Source: Actinomycetota bacterium (GTDB taxonomy: Bacteria; Actinomycetota; Thermoleophilia; Gaiellales; Gaiellaceae). From it: DNA of 64,000 nt. Of the stretch, positions 966 to 5,251 are shown piece by piece. Position numbers and translations under genes: made by a program. Position 1 is the stretch's first letter, and every line of letters begins with the position of its first letter. The stretch lies in NCBI GenBank assembly GCA_004366385.1, contig SIRU01000033.1, positions 186,001-250,000 of the forward strand, read 5' to 3'. Below the pieces are notes generated by a model that saw nothing but the letters and a program-made list of their open reading frames with translations, searched no databases and had not been told where the DNA came from.

Positions 966-2282
966 ATGACACCTCGTGCATATCGGCCCGCCGGATTGAA
1001 GCGGTCCGTCGCCCAGCTCTGGACGTTCGTGGTCGCGTCGGCCGCGATCCTCGCAGCCGGCGCCCTCGTGCTGTCGTCGCTCCTCACCCAGAGCTTCCGC
1101 GACCAGGTCCTCGACGACAGCGCGCAGGAGGTGGGCCTGTTCGCGAACTCCGTGCTCGCGCCGACGCTGGTTCGCGGGAACCGTCTCGTGGTGCGCGGGA
1201 GCGATCTCACCCGGCTCGGGCGCACGATTCGCACTCCGGAGGACTTCGCGGGCGTCGCCGTGTGGACGCGAGAGGGGTCGCTCGTCTTCTCGACGCTCCC
1301 GGGACGCCGTCAGCTGACGGCGCGCCGGGACGTGGAGGCAGTCTTTCGGAGCGGTACGCCGTTCGCGGAGACGACGGAGGTGCCGAGGCGGGACGGGACC
1401 GCCACGAGCCGCTTCCTCTCCGTCTGGGCCCCCCTCACGGCGGCGAGCGGCCGGCCCGTCGCCGCCCTCCAGGTCCTGCTGCACCCGGACGAGCTCGATG
1501 CCAGCATCGCGCGCGCCACCCGCACGGTATGGATCGCCGTCGCTGTCGTCTTCGCCGTGCTCTGGCTGTTCCTCGCAGGGCTCGGACACGGCGCCGCCGT
1601 CCGCCTCACGCGCCAGAACGAGGCCCTGGAGAATCGGTCACGCGAGCTGCTCGACGCGTCTCGCGAGGTGGAGCGCAACCTTCTCGGCACGATCGAGACG
1701 CTGAACGCGGCGGTCGAGGCGCGCGACCCGTACACGGCCGGCCACTCGCTCCGCGTTCGCAGCGTCGCGCTCGCGGTCGGCCGCGAGCTCGGGCTGACGG
1801 CGCCGCAGCTCGGCTCCTTGGCGACGTCGGCGCTGTTCCACGACGTCGGCAAGATCGGGATCCCGGACTCGGTGCTCACCAAGCCGGGTGCGCTGGAGCC
1901 GGCCGAGGCGGCCGTCATGCGCGAGCACGTCGACCGCGGCGCCGAGATCGTCTCGAAGGTGTCGTCGTTCGAAGGCTCGGTGAGCGCCATCAGGCACCAC
2001 CACGAGCGCTGGGACGGCCTCGGCTACCCCGACGGGCTCCGTGGCGACGAGATCCCGCTGGACGCGGCGATCGTCGGCCTCGCCGACGCCTGGGACGCGA
2101 TGACGACCCACCGGCCCTACGCGCGCGGCCTCTCCCTCAACGAGGCGCTGCTCCAGATCCGCGGCGGGCGCGGCAACCAGTTCAGCCCCACGGTCGTGGA
2201 CGCATTCCTCGAGGTAGCGAAGCGCCAGCCCACGGCAGTCATGCCGCCGGACGACGGTAGCGTCTCGTTCGCGGCGAGCTAG
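966..2282 (+). CDS. Membrane-anchored HD-GYP domain protein (putative c-di-GMP phosphodiesterase)
   Basis: 438 residues. An N-terminal membrane segment (about 16-37), an extracytoplasmic sensor-like region (about 40-175), a second membrane segment (about 178-200), a short linker, then a complete HD-GYP domain. The catalytic HD lies at H292-D293 (FHDVGKIGIPD), and HHHERWDGLGYPDG with GDEIP follows from residue 343. HD-GYP enzymes cleave cyclic di-GMP; all metal-binding motifs look intact, so the domain is probably active. ATG 966 is chosen; an in-frame GTG lies at 957. The 3' end overlaps the convergent SnoaL-like gene by 4 nt. The sensed signal is unknown. Confidence 0.85.
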   Translation: MTPRAYRPAGLKRSVAQLWTFVVASAAILAAGALVLSSLLTQSFRDQVLDDSAQEVGLFANSVLAPTLVRGNRLVVRGSDLTRLGRTIRTPEDFAGVAVWTREGSLVFSTLPGRRQLTARRDVEAVFRSGTPFAETTEVPRRDGTATSRFLSVWAPLTAASGRPVAALQVLLHPDELDASIARATRTVWIAVAVVFAVLWLFLAGLGHGAAVRLTRQNEALENRSRELLDASREVERNLLGTIETLNAAVEARDPYTAGHSLRVRSVALAVGRELGLTAPQLGSLATSALFHDVGKIGIPDSVLTKPGALEPAEAAVMREHVDRGAEIVSKVSSFEGSVSAIRHHHERWDGLGYPDGLRGDEIPLDAAIVGLADAWDAMTTHRPYARGLSLNEALLQIRGGRGNQFSPTVVDAFLEVAKRQPTAVMPPDDGSVSFAAS

Positions 2283-2731
2283 CCGGGCACCGGGAACGCC
2301 AGGTCCGTGTAGACCATCTCGCCCTTGAACTTCTTCGCAACGGGGTCCCACGGGAAGAAGATCGCGTTTCGCCAGTTCAGCCGCTCTCCCGTCGGCTCGT
2401 GCTCGAGCCAGCGACCCTCGTGCGTGCCGGTGACGATCGCTTCCTCGCATACCCCCTGCGGCCCGATGACGATGTAGTCGAGGTCGAAGTGGATGTCCGG
2501 GAAGGCCGTGAGCAGCTCCGTGTAGAAGCGGGTCGCGCCCTCGTGGCCCTCCCAGCGGGCACCCGTCCCCATCACCTCGTACACGCAGTCCTCGGTGAGC
2601 GTGGAGATCAGCCCGGGGAGATCCCGGTTGTCCTCCGCGATCGAGTGGACCTTCCAGAGCTCGCGGATCTCCGCGTACTCGTCCACGTCCACCGGGCGGC
2701 GGAGAAGCTCGAGGATGCGATCGCTGGCCAT
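2279..2731 (-). CDS. SnoaL-like / NTF2-fold protein
   Basis: 150 residues with the cone-shaped alpha+beta pattern of the nuclear transport factor 2 / SnoaL superfamily: an N-terminal helix (LRRPVDVDEYAEIREL), then GLISTLTEDCVYEVMG, a central EGHEGATRFYTELLTAFPD and C-terminal strands. These small proteins act as isomerases, cyclases or ligand-binding modules; the substrate cannot be told from sequence. ATG 2731 is preceded by GAAAGGAGCC, a good Shine-Dalgarno. Convergent with the HD-GYP gene (4-nt overlap) and downstream of the SOS-regulated LysM gene, 81 nt away. Confidence 0.7.
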   Translation of the reverse strand: MASDRILELLRRPVDVDEYAEIRELWKVHSIAEDNRDLPGLISTLTEDCVYEVMGTGARWEGHEGATRFYTELLTAFPDIHFDLDYIVIGPQGVCEEAIVTGTHEGRWLEHEPTGERLNWRNAIFFPWDPVAKKFKGEMVYTDLAFPVPG

Positions 2732-2812: not shown

Positions 2813-3052
2813 CTATGGCACCACGAGCAGCTGCCCGGGCACGATCGTCGCCCCCTCCAGGTCGTTGAGACGCTTGATCCTCCACACTCCCTCGCGTGGG
2901 TCGCCCGGGACGTGCGCGAGCGCGATCGACCACAGCGTGTCCCCCGGCTGGACTCGGTACTCGGCCGTGTGGGCGCCTGCGCCCGTGTCGCGCGCCAACA
3001 CCGCCCACAGCACCACGGCGGCGACGACGACGATGGCAACCCGAGCGAACAT
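2813..3052 (-). CDS. Small LysM membrane protein, putative SOS cell-division suppressor (YneA/ChiZ/DivS-like)
   Basis: 79 residues: one N-terminal membrane segment (residues 4-20), a short linker, and a single LysM domain (about 31-79: YRVQPGDTLWSIA ... GATIVPGQLLVVP) that should bind peptidoglycan outside the membrane. This is the architecture of the SOS-induced division inhibitors YneA of Bacillus, ChiZ (Rv2719c) of Mycobacterium and DivS of Corynebacterium. Two LexA-type boxes and a near-consensus promoter lie directly upstream; the predicted transcription start is within a few nt of ATG 3052, so the mRNA is probably leaderless. An in-frame GTG at 3076 would lie upstream of the predicted transcript start. 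lexA itself is not in this window. Function inferred from architecture plus operator. Confidence 0.75.
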   Translation of the reverse strand: MFARVAIVVVAAVVLWAVLARDTGAGAHTAEYRVQPGDTLWSIALAHVPGDPREGVWRIKRLNDLEGATIVPGQLLVVP

Positions 3053-3090
3053 GTGTTCGCAAGCATAGGCGAACACATGTTCGCTGTCAA
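3045..3090 (-). promoter_or_regulatory. SOS promoter with two LexA boxes for the LysM gene
   Basis: On the minus strand, -35 TTGACA (3090-3085), a 17-nt spacer and -10 TATGCT (3067-3062). The spacer is filled by a LexA box, GCGAACATGTGTTCGC (3084-3069 read on the minus strand); a second box (3060-3045) covers the start codon. Both match the Bacillus/actinobacterial consensus CGAAC-N4-GTTCG. The boxes are exact reverse complements of each other, giving a 16-bp inverted repeat with an 8-bp centre (3061-3068). The -35 overlaps the TGA of the upstream DUF1611 gene. LexA bound to either box should block transcription until DNA damage. Confidence 0.88.
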
Positions 3091-4118
3091 GGCGCGATGT
3101 GTGACAAGATCGTGTCGAGCAGGAAGCCGGCTCCGAAGCGCACCGGGTCGTCGGCCGGCAGCCCGGCTGCGTCGCTCTCCGCGGCGATCGCCGCCCGCGC
3201 CTCGTCGTCGCCCTCGAGAGCCGCGGTGTTGATCGCGAGGCACGCCACCGGCGCCTTGCGCGCCGGCAGCGAGATCCGCTCGTGCAGTTCCACGAGCTCC
3301 GCGAGCGGCGGGATGGGATGCCCCGGGCACCCCTCGATCTCCACGTCGCCGGCACGGTGGCAGAGGACGAACAGGTGCGGTGCCGCGCCGTGGATCAACC
3401 CCATGGTCACCCCGGAGTACATCGGGTGGACGAGCGAACCCTGGCCCTCCACGAAGAGCAGCTTCCCGCCCCGCTCCACGCCCTCGACCACCAGCCGCTC
3501 CGCGGCGCCGGCGAGGAAGTCCGAGACGACGGCGTCCACGGCGATCCCCCACCCGGCGATCGCGATCCCCGTCTGGCCCGTCGGCACGAAGACCGATGCG
3601 AGACCGCGTCTCCGCGCCTCGAGGTCGAGCTCGACCGCGACCGTCTTCTTCCCGATCGCGCAGTCGGAGCCGACCGTCAGCACGATCGTCGCGTCCACCT
3701 CGAGGTTCGCGCCGGTTGGCACGTTGAGCCCCTCCGGAGGCTTCCGCAGGTCGCGGAGCGTCGCCCCGTGCCGCGCCGCGAGCGCCACCAGCTCGGGATC
3801 GTCGGAGACGAACTCGTGGAGCCCGCTCTCGACGTCGAGACCCGCCTCCAGGCACCGCTTCAGGAGCTCGCGCCACGCCGGCGGGAAGCGGCCTCCCTGC
3901 GTCGCGACACCCACGACGGCGGCGGTCGGGCCGTATGGGAGCGCATCGTCCACCGAGCCGACGATCGGGATGCCCTCATGGCTCTCCCCCGCCCGCGCCG
4001 AGTCGAGGATCGCAACCACCGGGTCCGGCCCGTAGCGGATGATCCCGCGCATCGTCTTGCCGTAGTGCGGGTCGTGCGAGAAGCCCTCGCCGAGAATGAG
4101 GATGCGCCGTCCGCTCAC
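3087..4118 (-). CDS. dgcN: DUF1611 family protein, DgcN-like (putative D-glutamate N-acetyltransferase)
   Basis: 343 residues, usual for DUF1611. The N-terminal half begins RRILILGEGFSHDPHYGKT and carries a Rossmann-like fold; the C-terminal half has a P-loop-like VGSDCAIGKKTVAVEL near residue 145 and the family segment FVEGQGSLVHPMYSGVTMGL. DUF1611 proteins paired with a dipeptide-epimerase homologue were described as DgcN/DgcA, which N-acetylate and then racemise D-glutamate for catabolism. The start is GTG 4118, overlapping the TGA of the epimerase gene (GTGA), so the two are translationally coupled. Family call firm; substrate inferred from the pairing. Confidence 0.75.
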   Translation of the reverse strand: MSGRRILILGEGFSHDPHYGKTMRGIIRYGPDPVVAILDSARAGESHEGIPIVGSVDDALPYGPTAAVVGVATQGGRFPPAWRELLKRCLEAGLDVESGLHEFVSDDPELVALAARHGATLRDLRKPPEGLNVPTGANLEVDATIVLTVGSDCAIGKKTVAVELDLEARRRGLASVFVPTGQTGIAIAGWGIAVDAVVSDFLAGAAERLVVEGVERGGKLLFVEGQGSLVHPMYSGVTMGLIHGAAPHLFVLCHRAGDVEIEGCPGHPIPPLAELVELHERISLPARKAPVACLAINTAALEGDDEARAAIAAESDAAGLPADDPVRFGAGFLLDTILSHIAP

Positions 4119-5131
4119 GTTCCCGCTGCCGAGACGCCGAGGCCCGGCTCCTCCGACGGCACCTGCACGCCGTCGACGAACACGACTCCCGGCCACGGGT
4201 CGTCGCGCAGCAGGAGGTTCCCGTCGAGGTCGACGTGGTCACAGAGCGGCGCGACGCAGCAGCCGGCGGCCACACTCAGCCCCGACTCGACCATGCACCC
4301 CAGCATCACCCCGAGCCCGAGTGCGCGGCCCGCGTGCGCCATCCGGATCGCCTCGCGGATCCCACCCGACTTCGAGAGCTTGATGGTGATGCCGTGCGCG
4401 ATCTCCGCGCACGCGGCGACGTCGGCCAGCACATGGCAGTCCTCGTCGACGTAGATCGGGATCGGGGAGCGCTCCTTCAGCACGCGCCCGCCCTCGTCGC
4501 CCGCCGGCAGCGGCTGCTCGCAGTACTCGACGCCGAGCTCCGCCAGCTGCGGGAGCGCGTCGAGCGCCTCCTCGAGCGACCACCACTCGTTCACGTCGAC
4601 CTGGAGCGACAGGTGGGTCACGCCCCGCACCGCGCGCACGCGTTCGACGTCGAGCCCGTCCCCGCCGCCCAGCTTCAGCTTCAGCCGCCGGAAGCGCGAT
4701 GCCGCCTGCTCCGCGCGGCGCGCCATGTCATCCGGGTCGCCGAGCCACACCGTCCACGAGGTCGGAGGGCCGACACGCGGCAGCCCGAGGAGCCGGTAGA
4801 CGGGCACGCCGAGGAGCTTCCCCTGGAGATCGTGCAGCGCCGCGTCGAGCGCGGCCTTCGCTGCCTGTTCGCCCGGGACCTCTGAGAGCCGCGCGCCGAT
4901 CTCCTCGAGCGCGAACGGGTCGTCCCCGAGCAGCCCCGCGTGCTCCTCCACGAACGTGAGCGCGGACTCCGCCGACTCGCGGTAGCGCTCGATCGGCGCG
5001 CCCTCGCCGTGCCCCGTCACGCCGTCGTGCCGGAGCGCGACCTGGACGACGTCCGCGGAGTCGGCCGCCTCGCGCGCGATGACGAACGTCTCCGCGAGCG
5101 TGACGCTCGCGACCCAGGCCTCGACCTCCAC
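4115..5131 (-). CDS. dgcA: Enolase-superfamily racemase/epimerase, DgcA-like (putative N-acetyl-D-glutamate racemase)
   Basis: 338 residues of the mandelate racemase/muconate lactonizing subgroup. The catalytic barrel shows the KxK lysine pair in RRLKLKLGGG, metal ligands in VDVNEWW, CEQPLP and VDEDC, and the opposite base lysine in TIKLSKSGG, the pattern of L-Ala-D/L-Glu epimerases. Coupled by a GTGA overlap to the DUF1611 gene, it fits the DgcN-DgcA route; a muropeptide (Ala-Glu) epimerase role is the alternative. GTG 5131 is preceded at 7 nt by a -10-like TAGGCT (5144-5139). Confidence 0.75.
   Translation of the reverse strand: MEVEAWVASVTLAETFVIAREAADSADVVQVALRHDGVTGHGEGAPIERYRESAESALTFVEEHAGLLGDDPFALEEIGARLSEVPGEQAAKAALDAALHDLQGKLLGVPVYRLLGLPRVGPPTSWTVWLGDPDDMARRAEQAASRFRRLKLKLGGGDGLDVERVRAVRGVTHLSLQVDVNEWWSLEEALDALPQLAELGVEYCEQPLPAGDEGGRVLKERSPIPIYVDEDCHVLADVAACAEIAHGITIKLSKSGGIREAIRMAHAGRALGLGVMLGCMVESGLSVAAGCCVAPLCDHVDLDGNLLLRDDPWPGVVFVDGVQVPSEEPGLGVSAAGT

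Positions 5132-5178: not shown

Positions 5179-5251
<73 letters not shown>

Follow-up and report, generated by a model that had tools for sequence, protein, structure and literature searches.

The window, i.e. the whole 64-kb stretch of DNA that was analysed, carries on its minus strand a short gene for a protein with a predicted transmembrane (TM) helix and a LysM domain, preceded by a dgcN-like and a dgcA-like gene and followed by a SnoaL-like gene (Table 1). When the minus strand was read towards this gene, a TTGACA element, a 17-nt spacer (GCGAACATGTGTTCGCC, 3084–3068), a TATGCT element, the dinucleotide TG and a LexA box were found in succession, and another LexA box was located inside the spacer. 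The 79-aa ORF begins with ATG-TTC inside the second box; its ATG (3052–3050) lies nine nt past the -10 element. Both the promoter whose spacer holds a LexA box and the ATG within a further box, as proposed in a preliminary description of the locus, could be confirmed in the sequence. A detail absent from that description is that the TGA stop of the dgcN-like gene (3089–3087) falls within TTGACA. The motif GAAC-N4-GTTC occurred at just two sites in the 64-kb window, box 1 and box 2. Under a first-order Markov model fitted to the window, the expected number of exact 14-mers in the window is 0.15, and that of exact box pairs no more than 40 nt apart in the whole genome is approximately 0.0006.

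Table 1. Features at and around the LysM gene, with positions in the window
Feature	Position	Strand	Evidence
-35 element TTGACA	3085..3090	-	Sequence; exact TTGACA in 90/101 homologues
LexA box 1 CGAACATGTGTTCG, inside the 17-nt spacer	3070..3083	-	Sequence; exact box in 101 homologues
-10 element TATGCT	3062..3067	-	Sequence; TANNNT in 90/101 homologues
LexA box 2 CGAACACATGTTCG, over the expected transcription start and the ATG	3046..3059	-	Kept in 110/112 order-level homologues
79-aa TM-LysM protein, candidate yneA-like SOS division inhibitor	2813..3052 (including stop)	-	LysM PF01476, E 7e-11
dgcN-like DUF1611 gene, immediately upstream	3087..4196 (ORF limits, true start uncertain)	-	PF07755, E 2e-62
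dgcA-like enolase-superfamily racemase gene	4115..5131	-	DgcA model, E 7e-69, 233 bits (400 needed)
SnoaL-like gene, downstream	2279..2731	-	PF07366, E 1.6e-14

The protein was encoded in 126 of 199 relatives, many of which are incomplete draft assemblies. Among 112 order-level homologues, the start codon lay inside box 2 in 110, an exact box 2 was present in 108, and the second codon was TTC in all 110 homologues that start within the box. The two exceptions were one homologue at a contig edge (L149) and one without box 2 (L156). An exact box 1 was also found in 101 of the 112, and these 101 mostly shared the promoter geometry, with a spacer of 17–18 nt in 96 and a distance of 8–9 nt from the -10 element to the start in 92. 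The sites, their positions and their conservation are direct observations, and the conservation of box 2 (110/112) and box 1 (101 homologues) is real support for them. The putative double lock, that is, the box pair together with an operator-embedded start, was thereby found to extend to about 100 genomes. Shine-Dalgarno-like 4-mers were seen in just 5 of 110 homologues, which makes a leaderless mRNA probable; the expected transcription start was placed from the position of the -10 element only.

A strict search pattern, TTGAC-box-box(RTG), was found in 70 of the 299 genomes of the class, with a single match in each (control, 0); it was confined to families f1–f3 of the order and matched the start of the LysM gene wherever both searches located the gene. 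A looser double-box pattern was present in 62 of the 396 genomes of the phylum, against 2 in the control. Among its matches were the LysM gene L167 and the 2OG-Fe(II) oxygenase gene L170; the double-box operator is therefore not limited to this order. The oxygenase gene (AlkB-like; L170:1532-2143) belongs to another family and has the same double LexA box, with a GTG start inside box 2; L169 resembles it.

In the window, box 1 and box 2 are exact reverse complements of each other and each is a near-palindrome. The exact inversion pointed out in the preliminary description therefore holds here; since each box is near-palindromic and exactly inverse pairs were found in only 8 of 101 homologues, this detail is incidental, and mutual inversion was discarded as a meaningful feature. 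Alternatively, the main role of the inverted repeats might be at the RNA level: in mRNA reading through from dgcN they could form a hairpin that masks the AUG, with LexA control being secondary. The folding predicted for the window agrees with this, as the probability of an unpaired AUG was 0.0006 in the read-through RNA compared to 0.83 in the leaderless mRNA. Across the 101 homologues, however, the AUG in read-through RNA was only slightly less accessible than with shuffled upstream sequence (median 0.34 against 0.47), 28 homologues fell below 0.2 against 25 after shuffling, and, besides the scarcity of inverse pairs, the conserved bases are those of the LexA half-sites. Such a hairpin-based control is extremely improbable, and a hairpin over the AUG as a conserved third lock was rejected, as it is strong in the window and not in the homologues.

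The position behind a D-glutamate-metabolism gene pair stood for the window, where the dgcN-like gene matched the DgcN model with E 5e-76 (256 bits, 480 needed) next to the dgcA-like gene; the synteny proved only partly conserved. The dgcA-dgcN pair lay immediately upstream in only 16 loci. In 28 loci the detected DgcN did not directly precede the LysM gene, and in many more no DgcN was seen within 2.4 kb, while the promoter and the boxes were kept. An operon in which the LysM gene is functionally joined to D-glutamate metabolism, with the boxes as accessories, could account for the overlap of the dgcN stop with the -35 element and for the 16 adjacent pairs, but not for the retention of promoter and boxes in loci where DgcN is elsewhere or unseen. 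It was judged very unlikely; the functional tie was dropped because direct adjacency is limited to those 16 loci, and the pair is thus regarded as neighbourhood and not as function. A tRNA-Arg(CCG) gene lies just past the dgcA start on the opposite strand (window 5179-5251, plus strand).

LysM is a common domain. The domain architecture of the window protein, a single predicted N-terminal TM helix and one LysM domain (PF01476 and AF2 model), is that of YneA; the AF2 model comprised a helix at residues 2–20 followed by a beta-alpha-alpha-beta fold, with a mean pLDDT of 84. The best NCBIfam match was the YneA model NF010723, which gave the full protein 41.1 bits; as the curated equivalog cut-off of this model is 60 bits, the protein was not assigned to the family. 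All 21 aligned members scanned matched the same model, likewise below the cut-off, and the match spanned TM helix and LysM domain over nearly the full length. By its predicted anatomy the protein is YneA-like and formally outside the NF010723 family. Residues M1 and F2 were invariant across the aligned members, and D38 and T39 were conserved in at least 90% of them. The TM-LysM inhibitor YneA of Bacillus subtilis targets FtsW: its TM helix binds FtsW, its LysM domain blocks septal synthesis, and the LysM residues D46/T47 are required (PMC13396833); D38/T39 may correspond to these two residues.

A LexA-controlled protein that remodels or anchors the cell wall during DNA damage, and does not inhibit division, would be compatible with the weak matches to several wall-hydrolase and LysM models, with the closest solved structures, which were LysM domains of endopeptidases such as LytE, and with ChiZ, which has a LysM domain and has been described as a wall hydrolase (PMC3989709). 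On the other hand, 79 aa leave no space for a hydrolase domain, the near full-length match to the YneA model was seen in all members, and the linkage to lexA in sister groups, described below, parallels yneA. Wall remodelling was therefore considered unlikely, although less so than the hairpin or the operon. The assignment as a YneA/ChiZ/DivS-type SOS checkpoint gene, as first proposed, is supported by the YneA model in 21/21 members and by related LysM genes beside lexA in a sister family and in further phyla, and the protein is accordingly treated here as a candidate division inhibitor.

The preliminary description had made its reading depend on a LexA in the genome and had suggested a search for further GAAC-N4-GTTC sites. 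One lexA gene was present (DNA-binding domain PF01726, E = 1.7e-25), which bears out the first point at the sequence level. It lies on contig C37 while the LysM gene lies on C30, so the two are not adjacent, and the placement of the gene away from lexA could be upheld. Exact CGAAC-N4-GTTCG sites numbered 9 in the genome versus 0 for a backward-read control pattern; the Markov model would give about six single sites genome-wide, and therefore single sites need context. Exact LexA boxes preceded lexA itself, uvrA, dinB (IMS domains), an RNase_T exonuclease/GIY-YIG gene and an AAA-domain gene, while the sites on contigs 44 and 62, two of the nine, appeared unrelated. The dinB gene (L005:1501-1530) seems to begin directly after an exact LexA box and is probably leaderless too. 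For the AAA-domain ATPase gene behind a LexA box (L006:1501-2888), we know of no SOS role.

Adjacency to lexA, a trait of yneA, was found in a sister family (f6) and in other groups only. In f6, lexA is directly followed by the LysM gene in the same orientation, and no LexA box was found at the start of the LysM gene itself. The f6 loci L148, L150-L155, L157-L159, L161 and L163 had the LysM gene approximately 1 kb after the lexA start, with lexA unseen in L155. The best relatives in Acidimicrobiia, Alicyclobacillus and Bifidobacterium adjoin lexA, mostly with boxes; in several of these lexA-linked relatives, TTGACA and a box within the spacer were accompanied by another box, mostly at a distance of 31-35 bp, and the start codon usually came after this second box. 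Read most simply, the gene moved away from lexA in this order and the boxes were brought closer together, to 22-25 bp, which put the start codon under box 2.

Box 1 was missing in nine homologues, one of which is at a contig edge. The other eight (L091, L098, L109, L110, L116, L120, L132 and L035) were also without TTGACA, and all eight had CGTCCG upstream of the LysM gene. In most of them GTCCG stood approximately 15-16 nt before TANNNT; GTCCG was seen in 3 of the 101 homologues with box 1, in none at that position. The mycobacterial RecA-NDp/PafBC consensus is tTGTCRgtg-8nt-TAnnnT (PMC5656591), and PafBC redirects sigma-A polymerase via a -26 motif (PMC11804915). The spacing in the homologues lacking box 1 equals that of the RecA-NDp consensus, and their putative -26 element reads GTCCG instead of the GTCRG of PafBC promoters, with C in place of R. 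This likeness, a GTC approximately 15 nt before TAnnnT, concerns the eight homologues and not the window gene.

A CCGTCCG element was also observed upstream of recA in much of the order (L186-L214) and, for the window genome, upstream of lexA (L007). Coding conservation of the gene preceding recA was set aside as its sole explanation, since the element is also kept in genomes with a different-looking stretch ahead of recA (e.g. G039, G069 and G042). The CCGTCCG-N-TANNNT-like sequence before recA and lexA is a candidate PafBC-type DNA-damage promoter. Genome-wide, CGTCCGA...TANNNT showed weak enrichment (5-6 per genome versus 0-3 in the control); among the matches, with genes named by reading of the sequences, were lexA and a ruvC-like start for the window genome and, for G044, recJ-like and rmuC-like genes. 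A fused PafBC-like protein (L325:706-2712, plus strand) is encoded in the window genome; it has two WYL domains, two WCX domains and a PafC HTH match below threshold. WYL proteins were found in seven of the eight genomes with a homologue lacking box 1, the exception (G023) being 78% complete. On a gene tree with few columns, these eight homologues need three state changes. The distribution suggests that, in up to three lineages, a PafBC-type switch took the place of the upstream LexA control. We lean slightly towards a rewiring in which the -35 element and box 1 were exchanged there for a PafBC-type activator element and the start-codon box was kept, which would give an AND-like gate of activator plus release of the repressor.

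For the locus as a whole, the conserved boxes, lexA with its regulon, the YneA model and the lexA linkage in the sister family together point to a relocated YneA/ChiZ-like SOS checkpoint protein under a double LexA operator that includes the start codon, probably on a leaderless mRNA; we regard this reading as highly probable. In an undamaged cell, LexA dimers would occupy box 1, between the -35 and -10 elements, and box 2, over the start site and the start codon. Binding at box 1 would block promoter recognition and binding at box 2 would block the start and promoter clearance, so that with LexA on both boxes RNA polymerase could neither engage nor clear the promoter. After DNA damage, RecA-stimulated LexA cleavage would free both boxes, and the SOS-induced promoter would yield a probably leaderless mRNA beginning at or next to the AUG. 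The protein would be held by its N-terminal membrane helix with the LysM domain outside the cell, where it most likely attaches to septal peptidoglycan and brings division to a halt. As box 2 supplies the start codon, the first two residues would be fixed as Met-Phe by the operator, and the invariant M1 and F2 are consistent with this.

Compared to YneA of Bacillus subtilis, the window gene is alike in its TM helix and LysM domain, its similar length and its predicted SOS control, with two exact, conserved boxes as predicted LexA sites at the promoter; it is unlike yneA in lying away from lexA, in having its start codon inside the operator and in being probably leaderless. Two proteins of Corynebacterineae, ChiZ (Rv2719c) and DivS, are DNA-damage-induced division suppressors in Actinomycetota as well; DivS is said to be without significant homology to YneA, and the likeness to ChiZ and DivS noted here concerns their described properties. 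In Acidimicrobiia and Alicyclobacillus, the LysM genes linked to lexA (e.g. L232, L237, L268 and L287) share TTGACA, the LexA box within the spacer and the presence of a further box downstream of it, and differ in the mostly wider distance between the boxes and in a start usually past box 2. The available part of one report gives lexA of M. tuberculosis as a leaderless SOS gene in Actinomycetota, and a start codon within the LexA box is not reported in that part (PMC2897130). A start codon supplied by the LexA operator is unusual for a YneA/ChiZ-like inhibitor; in the literature searched, no published case of a leaderless start codon within a LexA box was found, which is not proof of absence.

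The finding places a likely SOS division inhibitor, whose start codon is supplied by a repressor site, in a little-studied order of actinobacteria. It also points to a LysM gene family able to leave lexA and yet keep LexA control, and the variants lacking box 1 may serve as a comparative system for how LexA and PafBC share control of a division checkpoint.
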